Source of the DNA: Nitrospira sp.
GTDB lineage: Bacteria > Nitrospirota > Nitrospiria > Nitrospirales > Nitrospiraceae
NCBI GenBank assembly: GCA_013140455.1
Contig: JABFSU010000092.1
Span: 1 to 32,363 of the forward strand
Direction of reading: 5' to 3'
DNA: 32,363 nucleotides
Part shown: one piece after another, positions 16,680 to 23,142 of the stretch
How the letters are laid out: the number at the start of each line of letters is the position of its first letter
Numbering within the stretch: the stretch's first letter is position 1
Made by a program: the position numbers and the translations under genes
The notes under the pieces: model-generated
Told to the model about the DNA's origin: nothing
Seen by the model: the letters and a program-made list of their open reading frames with translations, nothing else
The model's database searches: none

Positions 16680-17534
16680 ATGCGATCACATCTCTGGACC
16701 TTTCTTATCGTAGTGGGAGTTCTGGCCGGATCCGGTGGATGCACACCGACTCCGAAGGTCGCAGCGGGTCCTGTGCAAGGCCATGACAGTGGAGCCCTCA
16801 CGTCGGCCGATATGGTATTTGCTCCGCCGTCGCCGGATATGATTCCGGGCGATCAGCGAGGGGAACAGATTCGCTTAGGCTACAAAATCGTGGTGGATAC
16901 GCAGGAGTATGGGCGTCCCTATGTGGGCAATCGGCTGAATTGTACGAATTGCCATCTCGATGCCGGCATAAATCCGAACACGGCATCTTTTGTGGGCATC
17001 AGCCGGTTGTATCCGGAGTATCGGGCGCGGGCGGATCGGCAGATGACACTGGCCGATCGTATCAGTGAATGTTTCGAACGCAGCATGAACGGAACGGCCC
17101 CTCCCCCCGATAGCTCGAAACTCCAGGCCGTCGTGGCCTACATCGAATGGCTCTCGCAAAACGTGCCGCCGGGCAGTGCGGTGCCGTGGCGCGGGATCCC
17201 GCGTCTGACCTCCAATCACATTCCCGATCCTGTAAACGGGAAAAAACAGTTCGCCACGAAGTGTGTGTTCTGCCATGGCGCGGATGGACAGGGGACCATG
17301 GCGGCCCCTCCGGTCTGGGGTCCGCATTCCTACAACATTGCAGCAGGAATGGCTCGTGTTTCGGTGGCGGCGTCGTTTATCAAGTCCAATATGCCGAGAG
17401 GCTGGGGCTGGACACTGACGGACGACGAGGCCTTCGATGTAGCGGCTTATGTGAACAGCCAGCCGCGTCCGGATTTCCCCGGCAAGCAGCATGACTGGCC
17501 GAAGGGCGGTAAGCCGGCGGATATACCGTACTAA
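16680..17534 (+). CDS. Diheme cytochrome c, TsdA-like (thiosulfate dehydrogenase type)
   Basis: Likely periplasmic lipoprotein of 284 residues (lipobox GSGGC, C21). Two c-type domains: the first has YVGNRLNCTNCHLDAG with heme at C88-H92, then ISRLYPEYRARAD and LADRISECFERSMNG; the second has CVFCH (C195-H199) and a likely Met ligand in SNMPRGW (M238). The NRLNC.NCH, DRI.ECFERSMNG arrangement is that of TsdA, which joins two thiosulfates into tetrathionate or does the reverse. C131 is at the position of the unusual Cys ligand of the active-site heme. The same layout is shared with relatives of unproven substrate. Start ATG 16680 has GAGGAAC upstream. An OsmC gene follows 46 bases later. Confidence 0.85.
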   Translation: MRSHLWTFLIVVGVLAGSGGCTPTPKVAAGPVQGHDSGALTSADMVFAPPSPDMIPGDQRGEQIRLGYKIVVDTQEYGRPYVGNRLNCTNCHLDAGINPNTASFVGISRLYPEYRARADRQMTLADRISECFERSMNGTAPPPDSSKLQAVVAYIEWLSQNVPPGSAVPWRGIPRLTSNHIPDPVNGKKQFATKCVFCHGADGQGTMAAPPVWGPHSYNIAAGMARVSVAASFIKSNMPRGWGWTLTDDEAFDVAAYVNSQPRPDFPGKQHDWPKGGKPADIPY

Positions 17535-17580
17535 ATCGTCGCTTGCCAGACGGCAATCGTGCGTATTCGGGAGGTGCGCG

Positions 17581-17994
17581 ATGAATCTTACTGTGGCCTA
17601 TCACGGCGGCGCACGCTACGACATCACCAGCGGTCGGCATCGCGTAGTGACCGATCAGCCGGAAGAAGACGGCGGCCACAACGCGGGCATGAGTCCTGTC
17701 GAGCTCTTCGTCGGCTCGGTTGCCGGCTGTGTCGGCTATTTCGTCGGTCAGTTCTGCGCGCGGCATGACATTTCGCGTGAAGGTCTTGCGGTGGATGCCG
17801 AGTGGGAGATGGCCGAAGGACCTCATCGCGTGGGGAAGATGGTGTTGGCGATCCGATTGCCGCATCGTCTCACGCCGGAAATGAAAGAACGCTTGTTGAA
17901 AGTCGCCCACGGGTGCACGGTGCATCAATCTTTCTCCGGCGCCCCGGCCGTCACGATCCAGCTCAATCCTCATACCACTGGAGTCCATCCATGA
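17581..17994 (+). CDS. OsmC-family protein, coupled to the sulfite dehydrogenase gene
   Basis: OsmC-like protein of 137 residues with the paired cysteines C50 (SVAGCVGYF) and C112 (AHGCTVHQSF). The GGHNAGMSPVELFVGSVAGC segment is typical of the YhfA-like OsmC branch rather than classic Ohr. No signal peptide, so cytoplasmic. GGGAGGTG lies just before ATG 17581. Its stop overlaps the start of the SorA-like gene (ATGA), so the two are translated together, which ties this protein to sulfite or related thiol chemistry. That link is inference from gene order. Confidence 0.87.
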   Translation: MNLTVAYHGGARYDITSGRHRVVTDQPEEDGGHNAGMSPVELFVGSVAGCVGYFVGQFCARHDISREGLAVDAEWEMAEGPHRVGKMVLAIRLPHRLTPEMKERLLKVAHGCTVHQSFSGAPAVTIQLNPHTTGVHP

Positions 17995-19175
17995 GTGAGT
18001 CCGTTTCATCCTCCCGTCGAACACTGTTCAAGCGGATGGCCGAAATTATCGGCGGGCTCGTGGTCTGGGGTCAGGTGCGACCGGCGCCGGCCCAGCAGAC
18101 GGTTTCACCGGAAACCGGCCCGCAGACCGTGCGGGTGATGCGACCGTACGACGCAGAAACGCCGGTGCGTGAATTCACGTCTTATGTGACCCCGAATCAC
18201 CGCTTTTTCGTGCGGAGTCATTTCGGTCCGCCCGCGCCTGAATTGATTGCTGAAGCCAATTGGCGGCTCCGTGTCGGAGGGCTGATCGAACATCCGCTGG
18301 AATTTACGCTCAAGGATCTTAAGGAGTTCGAACGGGTGACGATCACGGCCGTCGTGCAATGCAGCGGCAACGGGCGGGCGTTCCATCGTCCGAAAGTGCC
18401 GGGTGTGCAATGGGAGCGTGGCGCGGTCGGCAATGCGCAGTGGACCGGTGTGCGATTGCGGGACGTGCTCGCCAAGGCCGGCATACGGCCGTCCGCGAAA
18501 CATGTGCAGCTCCAGGGCGCCGATCGCCCGGTAGTGGCATCCGTCCCGTTGTTTACGCGAAGCATCCCGCTGGAGAAAGCCCTGCATCCGGACACAATCC
18601 TTGCTTATGAGATGAACGGGCGTCCCTTGCCGCTCCTGCATGGCGCGCCGTTGCGGGTCATTACTCCGGGCTGGATGGCGGATTCCTGCACCAAGTGGCT
18701 GACGGAGATCACGGTGCAGGTGGATGAAGCCAAGGGGTATTACATGCAGACGGCCTACCGCGTGCCGGTCACGGCGATTCAGCCGAACTCCGGTTTGCCG
18801 GGGACCTCGATGGTTCCCGTTGAAGCGATGGTCGTGAAGTCGCTCATCGCCTCGCCGGTCAATGGTGACCAGGTCGGGCGGGGACCGGTCACCGTGCAGG
18901 GCGTGGCGTGGAGCGGAGAAGCCGCTGTCGCGATCGTGGAGCTTTCGTTCGACGATGGCAAGACCTGGGAACAGGCCCGGCTGGTCGGCGAGGACGAGCC
19001 CTACGCCTGGCGGCAATGGCAGTTCCTGTGGAAGCCCAAGGCGGCCGGTGCCGTGACGATCCTCTGTCGCGCGACGGATGCTGCGGGACAGGTACAACCC
19101 CAGGAGAGCCCGTGGAATCCCAGCGGGTTCTTGTGGAACGGGTGGGACCGTGTCGCCATTACGGTGGCGTCATGA
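17991..19175 (+). CDS. sorA: SorA-like sulfite dehydrogenase, molybdopterin subunit
   Basis: Periplasmic molybdenum enzyme of the sulfite oxidase family, 394 residues, expected to oxidise sulfite to sulfate. It begins with a twin-arginine signal (SSRRTLFKRM, 7-16) and a hydrophobic stretch to APAQQ. The molybdopterin domain contains the Mo-ligand Cys in VVQCSGNGR (C124), and HGAPLRVITPGW is the family's cofactor-side segment. The C-terminal domain (about 280-394) is the dimerisation fold, ending PWNPSGFLWNGWDRVAI. ATG 17991 overlaps the previous stop and the gene's own stop overlaps the diheme partner (ATGA). A sulfite-specific activity is likely but other sulfite-oxidase relatives act on other substrates. 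Confidence 0.88.
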   Translation: MSESVSSSRRTLFKRMAEIIGGLVVWGQVRPAPAQQTVSPETGPQTVRVMRPYDAETPVREFTSYVTPNHRFFVRSHFGPPAPELIAEANWRLRVGGLIEHPLEFTLKDLKEFERVTITAVVQCSGNGRAFHRPKVPGVQWERGAVGNAQWTGVRLRDVLAKAGIRPSAKHVQLQGADRPVVASVPLFTRSIPLEKALHPDTILAYEMNGRPLPLLHGAPLRVITPGWMADSCTKWLTEITVQVDEAKGYYMQTAYRVPVTAIQPNSGLPGTSMVPVEAMVVKSLIASPVNGDQVGRGPVTVQGVAWSGEAAVAIVELSFDDGKTWEQARLVGEDEPYAWRQWQFLWKPKAAGAVTILCRATDAAGQVQPQESPWNPSGFLWNGWDRVAITVAS

Positions 19176-19789
19176 TGACACGGAGCCTTCCACTCATCGG
19201 CTTGTTCGTTTTGGGACTGGCAGGGCTGGCGGCGATGACGGCGGCGCAGGAAGACGATCCGGCCTCGGTGAGCGCAGCCCTGGCGCCGCGCGCAGAAGGC
19301 CTGATCGTCGCGCGTTGCTCGGTGTGCCACAGCCCCGATCTGGTGGCTCAGCAACGCCTGCCGAAAGACCGCTGGCTGGCCACGGTCGATAAAATGAAAC
19401 ATTGGGGAGCGGAAATTGCCGACGACGAAGCCGAGCTGCTCGTGCGGTATCTGTCCGCCCGCTATCACCCGGCTGCGCCGGATCATCTGCCGCCGTTCGA
19501 TCATGAATTGAGAAAAGCGGAGCCGCTGACACAGGAGCCTGCGGACACCGGTCCGCTCGTCGGCGTGGCGACAAGAGGGGCGGGCATCTTCGAGCACAAT
19601 TGTCAGGCCTGTCATGGCACCGGTGCGACCGGTGGTATGGGGCCGAAGCTGGCGAAGAATCCGATCCTGAAACATGACGATCTGTTCTGGGAGACCGTGC
19701 TGCATGGGCGGGGGCCGATGCCGGCTTGGGGATCGGTGCTGAGTCAGCAGGATATTGCCGATATTCACACCTGGTTATTGACGAAGTAG
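19172..19789 (+). CDS. sorB: SorB-like diheme cytochrome c
   Basis: Exported diheme cytochrome of 205 residues; by position and coupling the electron acceptor of the SorA-like enzyme. After a Sec signal (about 1-25) comes a domain with CSVCH (C49-H53), of the RCSVCHSPDLV..QRLPKDRW type seen in subunits of sulfite dehydrogenases. A second domain follows with CQACH (C144-H148). The second domain is strikingly like the separate cytochrome at 25745 (GG.GP.LA.NP.L...FW..V..GR..MP). Start ATG 19172 overlaps the SorA stop; ATG 19175 is equally possible. E. coli-type and Starkeya SorB have one heme, so the two-heme form is an elaboration. Confidence 0.85.
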   Translation: MMTRSLPLIGLFVLGLAGLAAMTAAQEDDPASVSAALAPRAEGLIVARCSVCHSPDLVAQQRLPKDRWLATVDKMKHWGAEIADDEAELLVRYLSARYHPAAPDHLPPFDHELRKAEPLTQEPADTGPLVGVATRGAGIFEHNCQACHGTGATGGMGPKLAKNPILKHDDLFWETVLHGRGPMPAWGSVLSQQDIADIHTWLLTK

Positions 19790-19803
19790 CGGAGAGCGGA
19801 GTT

Positions 19804-19944
19804 CACCCGCCTACGCAGGAAGCCACAGCTGTAAAGCTGTGGAGGAATGCGCAGCGGGTGTCCTCCGAAGCCTTGGCGAAGGAGGACAAGCTTCGGCGGG
19901 TTCCGCCGAAGACACAAAAGGGCCCACGGCTGTAAAGCCGTGGG
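19804..19944. repeat. Cluster of four inverted repeats (REP-like hairpin array)
   Basis: Four near-perfect or perfect stems are packed between sorB and the triheme cytochrome. CACCCGC 19804-19810 pairs with GCGGGTG 19854-19860, enclosing CCACAGCT 19823-19830 / GTAA / AGCTGTGG 19835-19842. GTCCTCC 19860-19866 pairs with GGAGGAC 19881-19887. CTTCGGCGG 19891-19899 pairs with CCGCCGAAG 19903-19911. CCCACGGCT 19923-19931 / GTAA / AGCCGTGGG 19936-19944 closes the set. The first and last hairpins share the GTAA loop and a similar stem, so they look like two copies of one unit. No protein is encoded. It may act as a terminator or messenger-stability element, or be a mobile REP-like unit. Confidence 0.7.
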
Positions 19945-19971
19945 GCTCCACCACAGAGGAAAGGAGCGGTC

Positions 19972-20982
19972 ATGAACGTGAGACGGAGCATGGTTGTCGG
20001 AGGGGCGTTGCTGACGTTGGTGGGGCTGATGTCGACTCCCCGCGTATTGTTCGGAGCCGATCAGCCGAAGGCGAAGGAGCTGGTCCAGCAGAACTGCGTC
20101 CAATGTCACCGGATGGAAGGCCAGGCGGAGTCCCGATTCAATTTGAAGGCGCCCGATCTCATCTGGGCGGGGAGCAAGTATGACCGGGCCTGGCTGATTC
20201 GCTGGCTGACCGGCAAGGAAGCGCCGTTGTATGTGAAAGGGTACCGCTGGGATCAATCGCAGGAAGCGCATAAGCACGTGACGGTGTCGGAGGCCGAGGC
20301 CAACGGGATTGCCGATTACTTTGCCGAGCACAACAAAGATCCCCGTGTGAAAGTCGGGGCCTTCGACACGGCGAAGGTCTCCAAGTATGAAGTGGCGTTC
20401 GGCGGAATGGCCTACAAGGCGCATGCCTGCCTGGGCTGCCATACGATCGAAGAAAACGGGAAGCTCATCGGCGGACAGCAAAGCATCGCGTTGGAAAAAG
20501 CCGGTCAGCGGTATAATATGGACTGGCTGTTCCGCTTCGGCCAGAACCCCCAGGATTTCATCACCCACACCGGAGAGTTTCTTGCCGATGCCACGGAGCC
20601 GCAATTGCGGGCGGTCATCGGCTATCTGGCTGCGCAGGGCGTTTCTGACTTCAAGTATTACGAGCCCTGGACGGCGCCGGAATTTGCTAAGGCCAGCTCT
20701 GGGCGCGGCAAGGTCATTTACAAAGAGTACTGCATGCAGTGCCACGGAGCCACCGGGAAAGGCGACGGCCCGGCCGCAGCCACTCTGGAGCCGAAACCCG
20801 CGATTCACGCCAATATCAATTTCAGCGAAGTGCCGACGGAATATCTGTATAACATGATCAATCACGGGGGGGCGGCAATGGGCAAATCCGCCAACATGCC
20901 CTATTGGGGCCTGACTATCGGACAGCAGGGTGTGGCGGATGTGATGGCGTATCTCAAGACCACGTTCAAGGGGCCGAAATAG
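19972..20982 (+). CDS. Triheme c-type cytochrome
   Basis: Exported cytochrome of 336 residues with three separate c-type motifs: CVQCH (42-46), CLGCH (153-157) and CMQCH (254-258). The signal peptide contains RRSMVVGGALLTLVGL and ends near LFGADQ. The domains are about 100 residues each, and domains 1 and 2 share no obvious identity with domain 3, which resembles the small monoheme cytochromes nearby (YCMQCHGATGKGDGPAAATL). I recognise no named family. It may collect electrons from the SorAB or TsdA-like enzymes. AAAGGAG precedes ATG 19972, and the hairpin array ends 27 bases before the start, so expression could be controlled by RNA structure. Confidence 0.9.
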   Translation: MNVRRSMVVGGALLTLVGLMSTPRVLFGADQPKAKELVQQNCVQCHRMEGQAESRFNLKAPDLIWAGSKYDRAWLIRWLTGKEAPLYVKGYRWDQSQEAHKHVTVSEAEANGIADYFAEHNKDPRVKVGAFDTAKVSKYEVAFGGMAYKAHACLGCHTIEENGKLIGGQQSIALEKAGQRYNMDWLFRFGQNPQDFITHTGEFLADATEPQLRAVIGYLAAQGVSDFKYYEPWTAPEFAKASSGRGKVIYKEYCMQCHGATGKGDGPAAATLEPKPAIHANINFSEVPTEYLYNMINHGGAAMGKSANMPYWGLTIGQQGVADVMAYLKTTFKGPK

Positions 20983-20991
20983 GAAACGCGT

Positions 20992-21043
20992 GTGAAGCGT
21001 CTCTCGTATCTCGTGAAGCGTGAATAGCGCCCGCGAGATACGA
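20992..21043. repeat. Inverted repeat with direct GTGAAGCGT copies
   Basis: TCGTATCTCG at 21004-21013 pairs perfectly with CGAGATACGA at 21034-21043, leaving a 20-base loop. GTGAAGCGT occurs twice, at 20992-21000 and 21013-21021. The stem could terminate the triheme cytochrome message; no U-run follows, so a Rho-independent terminator is not supported. Alternatively it is a small dispersed repeat. Confidence 0.55.
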
Positions 21044-21068
21044 ACGACGAGGGACGGAGGGTTCATCG

Positions 21069-21428
21069 ATGGCGACGTTTATTATTTCTGGCAGCCGCGG
21101 CACGGATGATCCCACGATGGCGACGCTCCCGTTCGTCGCGGCGAAAGCGGCCAAAGAGCAGGGGCACGATGTTGTCCTCTGGCTCTGGAACGAAGCGGTG
21201 ACGCTGGGACGGAAGGGTACGGCCGATCACGTCCATGGCGTGAATCTGACACCGCTAAAAGACTTGCTTGCCGGGGTGCACGCTGCAAATATTCCCATAT
21301 GGGTTTGCGGCGCCTGTGCGGTGGCGAGGCAAATCGGCGGAGGGGATCTGGTGGCCGGCGCGGCCATTAAAGGCATGCCGGACTACATCAAGGCGGTTGC
21401 CGAGCGGGATCGCAGTGTCGTGTTCTAG
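21069..21428 (+). CDS. DsrE-family protein (cytoplasmic type)
   Basis: DsrE-like protein of 119 residues without a signal peptide. The order FIISGSRGTDDPTMATLPFV, GHDVVLWLWNEAVTLG and NIPIWVCGACAVARQ is that of small DsrE/TusD-type folds. A CGAC pair (C80, C83) sits where sulfur-relay members carry their persulfide Cys. GGACGGAGGG lies just before ATG 21069. It could hand sulfane sulfur between enzymes. Its neighbours are a triheme cytochrome and a polyphosphate kinase, so context alone does not fix a role. The other DsrE protein of the window (14870) is exported and has a single Cys. Confidence 0.85.
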   Translation: MATFIISGSRGTDDPTMATLPFVAAKAAKEQGHDVVLWLWNEAVTLGRKGTADHVHGVNLTPLKDLLAGVHAANIPIWVCGACAVARQIGGGDLVAGAAIKGMPDYIKAVAERDRSVVF

Positions 21429-21493
21429 CAGGTTGTTCAAAGTGTTTGGGATACCGCTCGTTCGAGAGGGAGAGTCTCACCCGGGAGAATGTT

Positions 21494-22555
21494 ATGGCTG
21501 TTGACGGCGAGCCGAACGGCAAAGCGAAGAATAGAAAAGAGGGCCGGAGTGATCGGAATGCCGGGGCTGCCGCCGGCGGCGGGAGCGACCTGTCGGCGGA
21601 TGAACTGGAAACGATTCCGACGGCGATTCCCAGACAAGGCGACGGCTATCGTCAGCGGCAGAATGGAACCGGGGATGAGATCGCCTATGCGATCGGTGTC
21701 GCCGGGCACGCGTTGACGGATGACGACCTGATTCGGATCAACACCCGCAGAGGGTTGCTGACACTTCTGAAGCGGAAAGAGGTCGATCTGGAGGAGGTGC
21801 GCAAGACGCTGCTGTATGAGCAGGAGTTGAGGCAGCTTCAGGTCGAACTGGTCCGGTTGCAGCGGTGGGTGCAGGAGAGCGGCCAGCGGATTGCAATTCT
21901 GGTCGAAGGCCGCGACGCGGCCGGCAAGGGCGGCACGATTCGCCGCTTTACGGAACACTTGAATCCTCGCGCCATGCGCGTCGTCGCGCTCCCCAAGCCG
22001 TCGGATGAAGAGCGCGGCCAGTGGTATTTTCAACGCTATATCCGGCAATTGCCGAACAAAGGCGAGATCGTGTTCTTCGACCGCAGCTGGTACAACCGCG
22101 CGGTGGTCGAACCGGTGATGGGATTTTGCAGCAAGAAAGATCATCAGCGCTTCCTGCAGCAGGTTACCGAGTTTGAACATATGCTCTATGAAGACGGGGT
22201 GACGATCATCAAGTTCTGGTTTTCCATCTCCAAAGACGAGCAGGCGAAACGGTTTGAAGCGCGCCGACAGAATCCCCTCAAACAGTGGAAGCTGAGTCCG
22301 GTCGATGAAAAAGCGCAAGAGCTGTGGGATTCCTACACGCGCTATAAAGAGGAAATGTTCAGTAAAACCCACGCCACATTCAGTCCCTGGATCATTGTGA
22401 AGGCGAATGACAAGCAGGCCGCGCGGTTGGAGAGCCTGCGATATGTGTTGAATCTCCTGCCTTACAAAGGCAAGGAAGAGACTCAGATCCGTCTGACTCC
22501 GGATCCCAATATCATCACGCGCTTTCATCGCAAGATGGTGGAACTCGATTTGTGA
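21494..22555 (+). CDS. ppk2: Polyphosphate kinase 2
   Basis: PPK2-family enzyme of 353 residues that transfers phosphate between polyphosphate and nucleotides. The core has Walker A GRDAAGKGG (139-147), the GGTIRRFTEHLNPRAMRVVA stretch, a lid with PSDEERGQWYFQRYI and Walker B FFDRSWYNR (194-202). This is the single-domain form that typically makes GTP or ATP from polyphosphate. An N-terminal extension of about 100 residues, low-complexity and Gly/Asp-rich at first, precedes the catalytic part. ATG 21494 has GGGAGA upstream. The stop overlaps a GTG that could start the next gene. Confidence 0.95.
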   Translation: MAVDGEPNGKAKNRKEGRSDRNAGAAAGGGSDLSADELETIPTAIPRQGDGYRQRQNGTGDEIAYAIGVAGHALTDDDLIRINTRRGLLTLLKRKEVDLEEVRKTLLYEQELRQLQVELVRLQRWVQESGQRIAILVEGRDAAGKGGTIRRFTEHLNPRAMRVVALPKPSDEERGQWYFQRYIRQLPNKGEIVFFDRSWYNRAVVEPVMGFCSKKDHQRFLQQVTEFEHMLYEDGVTIIKFWFSISKDEQAKRFEARRQNPLKQWKLSPVDEKAQELWDSYTRYKEEMFSKTHATFSPWIIVKANDKQAARLESLRYVLNLLPYKGKEETQIRLTPDPNIITRFHRKMVELDL

Positions 22556-22572
22556 GGAACAGGATTGCGGCC

Positions 22573-23142
22573 ATGACAATCACACGTATGCTGGCGGTTA
22601 TGTTGGTTTGTGGCGTCGTGAGCGCGTCGGCCTTATCGGCGGCGGAGCGCCAGATGATGCAGCCGCGGGTGCCGGCCGACAAACTGGCGGAAGCGCGCGC
22701 ATTGGCGAGTCCGTTGCCGGATTCTGCCGAGATCCTTGAGAAGGGCAAGACGCTCTACAACGGCAAAGGCACCTGCTTCAATTGCCACGGCAAAGACGGA
22801 TCGGGCAACGGCATGGCAGCGGTCGGCCTCGATCCCTCGCCGCGTAATTTTCAGCACCATGGGTTCTGGCGGCATCGGACGGAGGGCGAGATTTACTGGG
22901 TGATCAAGCACGGCTCACCCGGCACGGCTATGATCGGATTCAGCGATCAGCTCACCGACGAAGAAATCTGGTCGATCATCCAATACGAGCGCAGTTTTGC
23001 CGGAGAGCATGGGCCGGGCATGATGGGGAACAAGGAAGGCATGGGCTATGGAATGGGACCCGGCGGGGGAATGGGCGGCATGGAGCATCGAGGCCCGAGA
23101 GGCGGCATGGGTGGATGTGAAGGCGAGGCCTGTAGCCGGTAA
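22573..23142 (+). CDS. Monoheme cytochrome c with Gly/Met-rich C-terminal tail
   Basis: Exported cytochrome of 189 residues from ATG 22573; a GTG at 22552 overlapping the PPK2 stop is possible but gives a poorer signal peptide. The signal ends near LSAAERQ. The heme motif is CFNCH (C68-H72) in GKGTCFNCHGKDGSGNG, and a likely Met ligand lies in PGTAMIGF. After the c-domain (ending QYERSFAG) comes a tail of about 40 residues made largely of Gly and Met, with HRGPRGGMGGCEGEACSR at the end. Met- and Cys-rich tails of this kind often bind Cu(I) or other soft metals, but that is inference. It lies 17 bases after ppk2. Confidence 0.88.
   Translation: MTITRMLAVMLVCGVVSASALSAAERQMMQPRVPADKLAEARALASPLPDSAEILEKGKTLYNGKGTCFNCHGKDGSGNGMAAVGLDPSPRNFQHHGFWRHRTEGEIYWVIKHGSPGTAMIGFSDQLTDEEIWSIIQYERSFAGEHGPGMMGNKEGMGYGMGPGGGMGGMEHRGPRGGMGGCEGEACSR

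Follow-up and report, generated by a model that had tools for sequence, protein, structure and literature searches.

The hairpin cluster and its host locus

In a Nitrospira genome, a tight cluster of hairpins lies just upstream of a cytochrome c gene, and the question it raises is whether these structures serve the neighboring genes or belong to a unit that moves on its own. In the window, by which we mean the whole stretch of 32,363 nucleotides that was analyzed, the genes flanking the cluster encode two cytochromes c (one upstream, one downstream), a molybdopterin oxidoreductase and a DsrE protein. An earlier note on this DNA had described four packed inverted repeats at 19804-19944 and had offered three readings: a REP-like mobile unit, a terminator of the sor operon, or a 5' leader that sets expression of the cytochrome. 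All of its inverted-repeat stems were found in the sequence at the positions it gave, and its spacing of 27 bases between 19944 and the cytochrome ATG at 19972 is correct. Its coordinates hold for the hairpins and not for the extent of the unit, which runs from 19807 to 19951 and is preceded by a TTCAC target at 19802-19806 (Table 1). The hairpin region folds more stably than all of 200 dinucleotide shuffles, both as RNA (z -6.45) and as DNA (z -7.23, again 200 of 200). Only one of 35 aligned copies, that of the window, has the ninth pair of the final stem (C19923-G19944).

Table 1. Features of the element and its host genes (positions in the window).
Feature	Position	Strand	Basis and remarks
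Molybdopterin oxidoreductase gene	17991-19175		precedes the upstream cytochrome c frame
Upstream cytochrome c reading frame	19172-19789	+	host; the name SorB is the earlier note's
Target / putative left cleavage site TTCAC	19802-19806	+	host DNA; in nearest relatives' empty site; 50/65 copies
Probable PATE-like non-autonomous element, 145 bp	19807-19951	+	exact boundaries from empty-site alignment and 39 two-ended copies
Left-end outer stem, 5' arm	19804-19810	+	pairs with 19854-19860; includes target CAC; RNA and DNA fold
Left-end middle stem CGCA	19814-19817	+	pairs with 19848-19851; fold and copy alignment
Putative left guide GGAA	19818-19821	+	complementary to TTC of TTCAC; guide/target tables
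Left subterminal hairpin CCACAGCT-GTAA-AGCTGTGG	19823-19842	+	stem 19823-19830/19835-19842, 8 bp; loop GTAA
Left-end outer stem, 3' arm	19854-19860	+	RNA and DNA fold; 35-copy alignment
Internal hairpin 1 (TGTCCTCC/GGAGGACA)	19859-19888	+	stem 19859-19866/19881-19888, 8 bp
Internal hairpin 2 (CTTCGGCGG/CCGCCGAAG)	19891-19911	+	stem 19891-19899/19903-19911, 9 bp; copy alignment
Putative right guide	19920-19923	+	GGGC in the window copy, consensus GGGA
Right subterminal hairpin CCACGGCT-GTAA-AGCCGTGG	19924-19943	+	stem 19923-19931/19936-19944, 9 bp; loop GTAA
Putative right cleavage site TCCAC	19947-19951	+	final bases of the element; TCCAC in 52/65 copies
Downstream cytochrome c gene	19972-20982	+	host

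Empty sites and precise insertion

When the flanks of the window copy were joined, the resulting query matched across the junction in at least 11 of 79 genomes of the genus, among the matches listed (G014, with the highest identity at 96%, and G002, G050, G067, G068, G039, G038, G069, G070, G041 and G011), and fell into two separate pieces on the source genome. One side only, or mainly one side, was matched in other genomes, for example G019, G065, G025, G032, G003, G015, G017 and G009, again among the matches listed. Ten of the 11 junction-matching genomes entered an empty-site alignment. The nearest relative carries the uninterrupted sequence GCGAAG-TTCAC-CACAGAGGAAAGGAGCGGTCATG, and the element is thus exactly 19807-19951. 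The alignment places the insertion precisely between TTCAC and CACAG, with neither duplication nor deletion of the target. Of the ten aligned empty sites, five have TTCAC exactly, including those of the four nearest relatives; the others read CTCAC, TTCAT, CTCAC, TTCAA and TTCCC. These data show that a 145-bp unit was inserted at this locus.

Copies that interrupt genes gave the same picture. In G019, copy L075 splits deoC, and joining its flanks with a single TTCAC restores the frame ...LAGRAK/VKASGGIREW (the slash marks the junction), a site at which 15 uninterrupted homologues align. A second copy in that genome, L080, splits a nuclease-like gene (labeled from a reading of its sequence) at the target ACCAC, and the joined flanks restore EGWC/WWYRKYAPG. 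The five target letters are therefore host DNA, and since both copies interrupt coding sequences, insertion is not confined to spacers. A 3-bp CAC target duplication, which would fit the window copy, was ruled out by L005 and L060 (TTTAC on the left) and L083 (TTCAT on the left), all of which have CTCCAC on the right. Terminal inverted repeats are absent: the left end, CCGCC... directly after TTCAC, and the right end, ...GGGGCTCCAC, are not inverted copies of each other.

Copies, variants and distribution

A search of the source genome (143 contigs) for the hairpin unit returned five copies including that of the window, so the sequence is not single-copy; a sixth match consisted of 24 bases of internal hairpin inside L006, a different element. 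Within the genus, 40 of the 79 genomes gave element matches at E <= 0.001, and in 32 genomes the match was below 1e-10. The phylum sample, in which at most two candidates were scored per genome, gave matches in 47 of 395 genomes. Matches below 1e-10 outside the genus came from nine genomes of the same family, in seven genera (g2, g3, g4, g7, g10, g13 and g15), and one further genome, from another family of the order, had a partial match at that level. Searches of plasmids and phages yielded no element match, and viral contigs no exact match to the left end.

Scanning 45 loci gave 39 copies with both ends. Counting the pentamer, 21 of these are exactly 150 bp long with TTCAC, eight measure 149, 151 or 152 bp and another eight 185 bp. 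About 35 extra bases account for the latter length, situated in the left or right hairpin loop in seven of the eight and elsewhere in the eighth (L090). This insert is palindromic and leaves the hairpin intact where it lies inside the loop (right in L002, L073 and L077; left in L080, L083 and L084); it recalls the SMR-A elements reported to target PATE palindromes in Haloquadratum (PMC3119063). Several genomes also contain core-deleted solo units of 49 nt (TTCAC, one hairpin and ...GGGGCTCCAC), seven of which are among the 65 copies discussed below, and a pattern search for this unit matched additional genomes. A deletion from one end hairpin to the other, which resembles it, would produce such solo units, and core deletion of Haloquadratum PATEs is reported to leave terminal-only versions of 52 bp (PMC3119063).

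An exact scan for the right-end core, with one genome per species, returned 57 stretches, mostly from Nitrospira. The others include an Elusimicrobia MAG (six contigs), an Uhrbacteria MAG, a Neomarinimicrobiota MAG, Candidatus Velamenicoccus and other Nitrospirae. In the Elusimicrobia MAG the left end is found on four of the six contigs, and the layout and both internal hairpins are kept, with TTTAC as target and a GAAA foot. In the Uhrbacteria copy the layout is looser, again with TTTAC and GAAA; GAAA is likewise combined with TTAAC in L278 and with GTTAC in L267, both from Nitrospirae, and the Neomarinimicrobiota copy (L322) is complete and diverged, with TTTAT and GAAA. The Velamenicoccus layout is looser still than that of Uhrbacteria, and L265 shows a right end only. 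The same layout, partly looser and mostly with a TTTAC-like target and a GAAA foot, was noted in L246, L254, L255, L273, L256, L278, L268 and L322; of the outside copies, L254, L255, L256, L273 and L322 lay beyond the reach of the copy detector and were assessed visually. Misbinning of such MAG contigs is possible, but their sequence differences speak against simple contamination by Nitrospira.

End structure, putative guides and targets

Of 65 copies, including solo and variant ones, 50 have TTCAC as the left pentamer and 52 have TCCAC at the right end. Pairing is kept in 93.5% of the stem cells of 35 aligned full-length copies, and their covariation score exceeded that of all 500 shuffles; the count of further pair types was reached by 157 of 500 shuffles and is hence not exceptional. 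One pair of the outer stem switches between G-C (17 copies) and A-T (14), and one pair of the left hairpin between A-T (16) and G-C (16). The covarying pairs track lineages, so they represent few independent events.

The left foot GGAA is complementary to the TTC of TTCAC, and the right foot GGGA to the TCC of TCCAC. The GGGC foot of the window copy may constitute a weakened right-end guide. Since the left end is palindromic, uncleaned scans of guides and targets also picked up chance matches and matches in antisense; the guide table was therefore cleaned and holds 105 left ends, a few odd rows remaining (such as GGTGT and one TTCC). GGAA is the guide in 82 of the 105, and GTAG occurs in no row. 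CC at target positions 2-3 accompanies GGGA in three of six left ends and GGAA in four of 82 (one-sided p 0.006, in a test chosen post hoc). The three GGGA/CC ends all come from G019, where among 12 distinct, hand-read left ends those at CCAC comprise 3/3 with GGGA and 0/9 with GGAA (p 0.0045, likewise chosen post hoc); the three GGGA copies elsewhere sit at TTCAC. Similarly, T at target position 3 goes with GAAA in two of five ends as against three of 82 (p 0.025, post hoc; one of the three is an odd row), and both GAAA copies of the genus itself sit at TTCAC. The match between guide and target is thus not invariable, and the natural variants, which follow the pairing in part, hint at retargeting in nature.

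L006, on contig C53 of the source genome (about 47540-47665), shares the internal hairpin CCTCCGTAGCCTTGGCGAAGGAGG, placed between other ends, and its right end (..GGGGAGCTTCATT) resembles by eye the class A compact elements described below. The core of internal hairpin 1 was found at 59 sites in the examined loci, and L006 is the only one without an end of the element family nearby. Because L006 shares this hairpin, passenger hairpins appear to have been swapped between element families.

Search for a mobilizing transposase

The source genome contains one match to a Y1 tyrosine transposase, which is short, sits on another contig (C91) and has no element nearby. This match (L052) is an ORF of 156 aa, labeled RAYT-like from its sequence and length; genes of relatives that look similar by eye have 234 aa, and it is probably a decayed relative.

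Y1_Tnp matches occur in 64 of the 79 genus genomes. Each of the 32 genomes in which the element matches below 1e-10 has one (G027 weakly), and none of the 15 Y1-less genomes has such an element match (Fisher p 0.0002). At the Pfam cut-off, element matches of this strength occur in 31 of 62 Y1 genomes and in one of 17 others (p 0.0007). Two Y1-less genomes, G014 and G025, show weak partial element matches. This co-occurrence may merely reflect genome size, completeness or clade.

Several searches were directed at an autonomous partner with the same ends. A pattern for an element of about 550 bp with these exact ends, a form of search that misses diverged or tnpB-bearing versions, returned nothing in 175 genomes. 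The TnpB domain PF07282 was detected in seven of the 79 genomes, and 12 loci bore merely loose, partial similarity to the element ends. Y1 matches were present in four of eight genomes carrying the right-end core, and their 17 loci contained no TnpA gene with element ends; the sole left-end-like match among them, L322, turned out to be a complete, diverged copy next to a broken piece of Y1 sequence. Using tblastn with Y1 proteins on the examined loci, we detected Y1 sequence in three element-bearing loci (L130, L133 and L173). In these and in L322 it lies 0.8-7 kb from the element and never between the element ends. One-ended partial copies, examined for a mobilizer, proved to be truncated, solo or extended.

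The same genus also harbors compact tnpA-only elements of about 550 bp (L097-L116), which we grouped into four sequence classes and some of which have an outer stem round the left hairpin. The left end of class C has, by eye, the TGTAAA loop and the outer stem in common with our element. In contrast to it, these compact elements carry their transposase and have other ends and targets (TCTAAT, TTCAA and others).

The closest rival to a PATE is its near cousin, a REP/BIME-type repeat spread by a RAYT (TnpA_REP). Hairpin repeats of single-strand type speak for it; RAYT-length Y1 genes are common in the genus, the source genome has its one RAYT-like ORF, and the 49-nt solo units look REP-sized. 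Against this stand the feet, where GGAA prevails and the GTAG tag is missing, and the surroundings of the Y1 genes. No element match was found in 31 Y1 loci, drawn from some of the genus Y1 matches listed, and among the hairpins listed up to 400 bp away from 17 additional Y1 genes none was element-like (20 loci, three without a Y1 ORF). Moreover, the 234-aa genes also occur in genomes that gave no element match, such as G013 and G009. The earlier suggestion of a REP-like mobile unit was right in that the sequence is dispersed and mobile, and does not hold in the strict sense, given the absence of a GTAG foot tag, the 145-bp unit and the lack of an adjacent Y1 gene; we consider a RAYT-spread repeat unlikely.

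Leader and terminator readings of the locus

A second rival reading is that the hairpins, maintained by selection, control the cytochrome gene in cis as its 5' leader or attenuator. In its favor, the region folds strongly, and a start codon lies 20-53 bp ahead of all five source-genome copies (a nominal distance for the shortened L004). The wider idea of a regulatory leader, which these five copies facing start codons had suggested, was dropped when no clear bias emerged from 65 copies: of the genes to their right, scored by codons, 35 run forward and 28 in reverse, with two uncalled (two copy pairs represent shared sites), which indicates no general leader role. Relatives, at least 11 among the matches listed, keep the gene pair with the site uninterrupted, the proteins downstream of the five source-genome copies look unrelated by eye, and an Rfam search over the window gave no match. 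We therefore regard a selected leader as very improbable. With the insertion, the 37-bp spacer between the cytochrome genes gains 145 bp of structured sequence. The element ends 20 bp before the start codon and leaves the ribosome-binding region the same as in the empty site; any effect on cytochrome expression would be a by-product.

An intrinsic terminator of the sor operon, which GC-rich hairpins after the upstream cytochrome gene might suggest, is the least probable of the readings: the sole terminator-like site in the element is on the minus strand, no hairpin followed by a T run on the transcribed strand was found within it, and a scan for promoters and terminators over 17500-22600 gave no more than chance would, with four terminator sites against 4.4 expected.

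Comparison with known systems

The PATEs of Haloquadratum walsbyi, as characterized in PMC3119063, share with the Nitrospira element the lack of terminal inverted repeats, near-terminal palindromes, the absence of target duplication, a length too short to encode a transposase, core-deleted terminal-only versions and a targeting sequence of 4-5 bp at the 5' end. In contrast to them, the Nitrospira element occurs in Nitrospira relatives and other bacteria and has two conserved internal hairpins, an outer stem round the left hairpin and the left guide GGAA with TTCAC. Ends related to IS605 are reported for some PATEs in that paper, and its feature table does not include them; for our element, the Y1, TnpB and 550-bp pattern searches revealed no IS605-type relative with the same ends.

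With the IS200/IS605 family, as described for IS608 (PMC5934647, PMC7290912), the element has several traits in common: it inserts 3' of a short, fixed sequence, which is kept at the left flank, hairpins lie near the ends, and the foot bases are complementary to the cleavage sites. It differs from IS608 in lacking tnpA and tnpB, in using the pentanucleotide TTCAC instead of TTAC and in having three possible Watson-Crick pairs per end. Because no Y1 TnpA gene lies inside the 145 bp, we class it as a non-autonomous IS200/IS605 relative and not as an IS. REP/BIME sequences with their RAYTs (PMC3733652, PMC8266576) likewise consist of short interspersed palindromes and rely on single-strand enzymology; unlike them, the Nitrospira element is a longer unit with a fixed target, has neither a GTAG nor a CGTC tag, and no RAYT was found beside it in the loci examined.

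Discussion

Our results argue, with a probability that we put at roughly 90%, that positions 19807-19951 of the window are a mobile IS200/IS605-type element that lacks a transposase gene, that is, a PATE. Its mode of movement is deduced from its anatomy. During a single-stranded phase of replication or repair, both hairpins would be bound by a Y1 tyrosine transposase provided in trans, and the foot GGAA would pair with the left cleavage site, TTCAC, and the foot GGGA with the right one, TCCAC. Next, the element would depart as a single-stranded circle, whose left guide would select a new TTCAC, the two central hairpins traveling as passenger modules. In IS608 guide and target are known to pair, and DNA-guided target choice has been engineered there (PMC5934647).

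A broader reading is possible, if doubtful. It would unite these sequences, across phyla, in one superfamily of transposase-free PATEs with common passenger hairpins, members of which retarget themselves through changes in their DNA guides and depend on transposases encoded elsewhere. Its guide-target sets would be GGAA/TTCAC in Nitrospira, GGGA/CCAC in one Nitrospira genome and GAAA/TTTAC-TTTAT in the Elusimicrobia, Uhrbacteria and Neomarinimicrobiota MAGs.

PATEs are an already known kind of element, and the family reported here would be a new, bacterial one; in the titles and abstract openings of the literature searched we did not find such a family described in Nitrospira. A hairpin cluster that had lacked an explanation is now accounted for as an insertion, its empty site being present in near relatives. 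Thanks to the natural variants of the guide, target choice by DNA guides becomes testable in wild sequences. For the annotation of Nitrospira genomes, the finding carries a caution: such hairpins are not to be taken for leaders or terminators.
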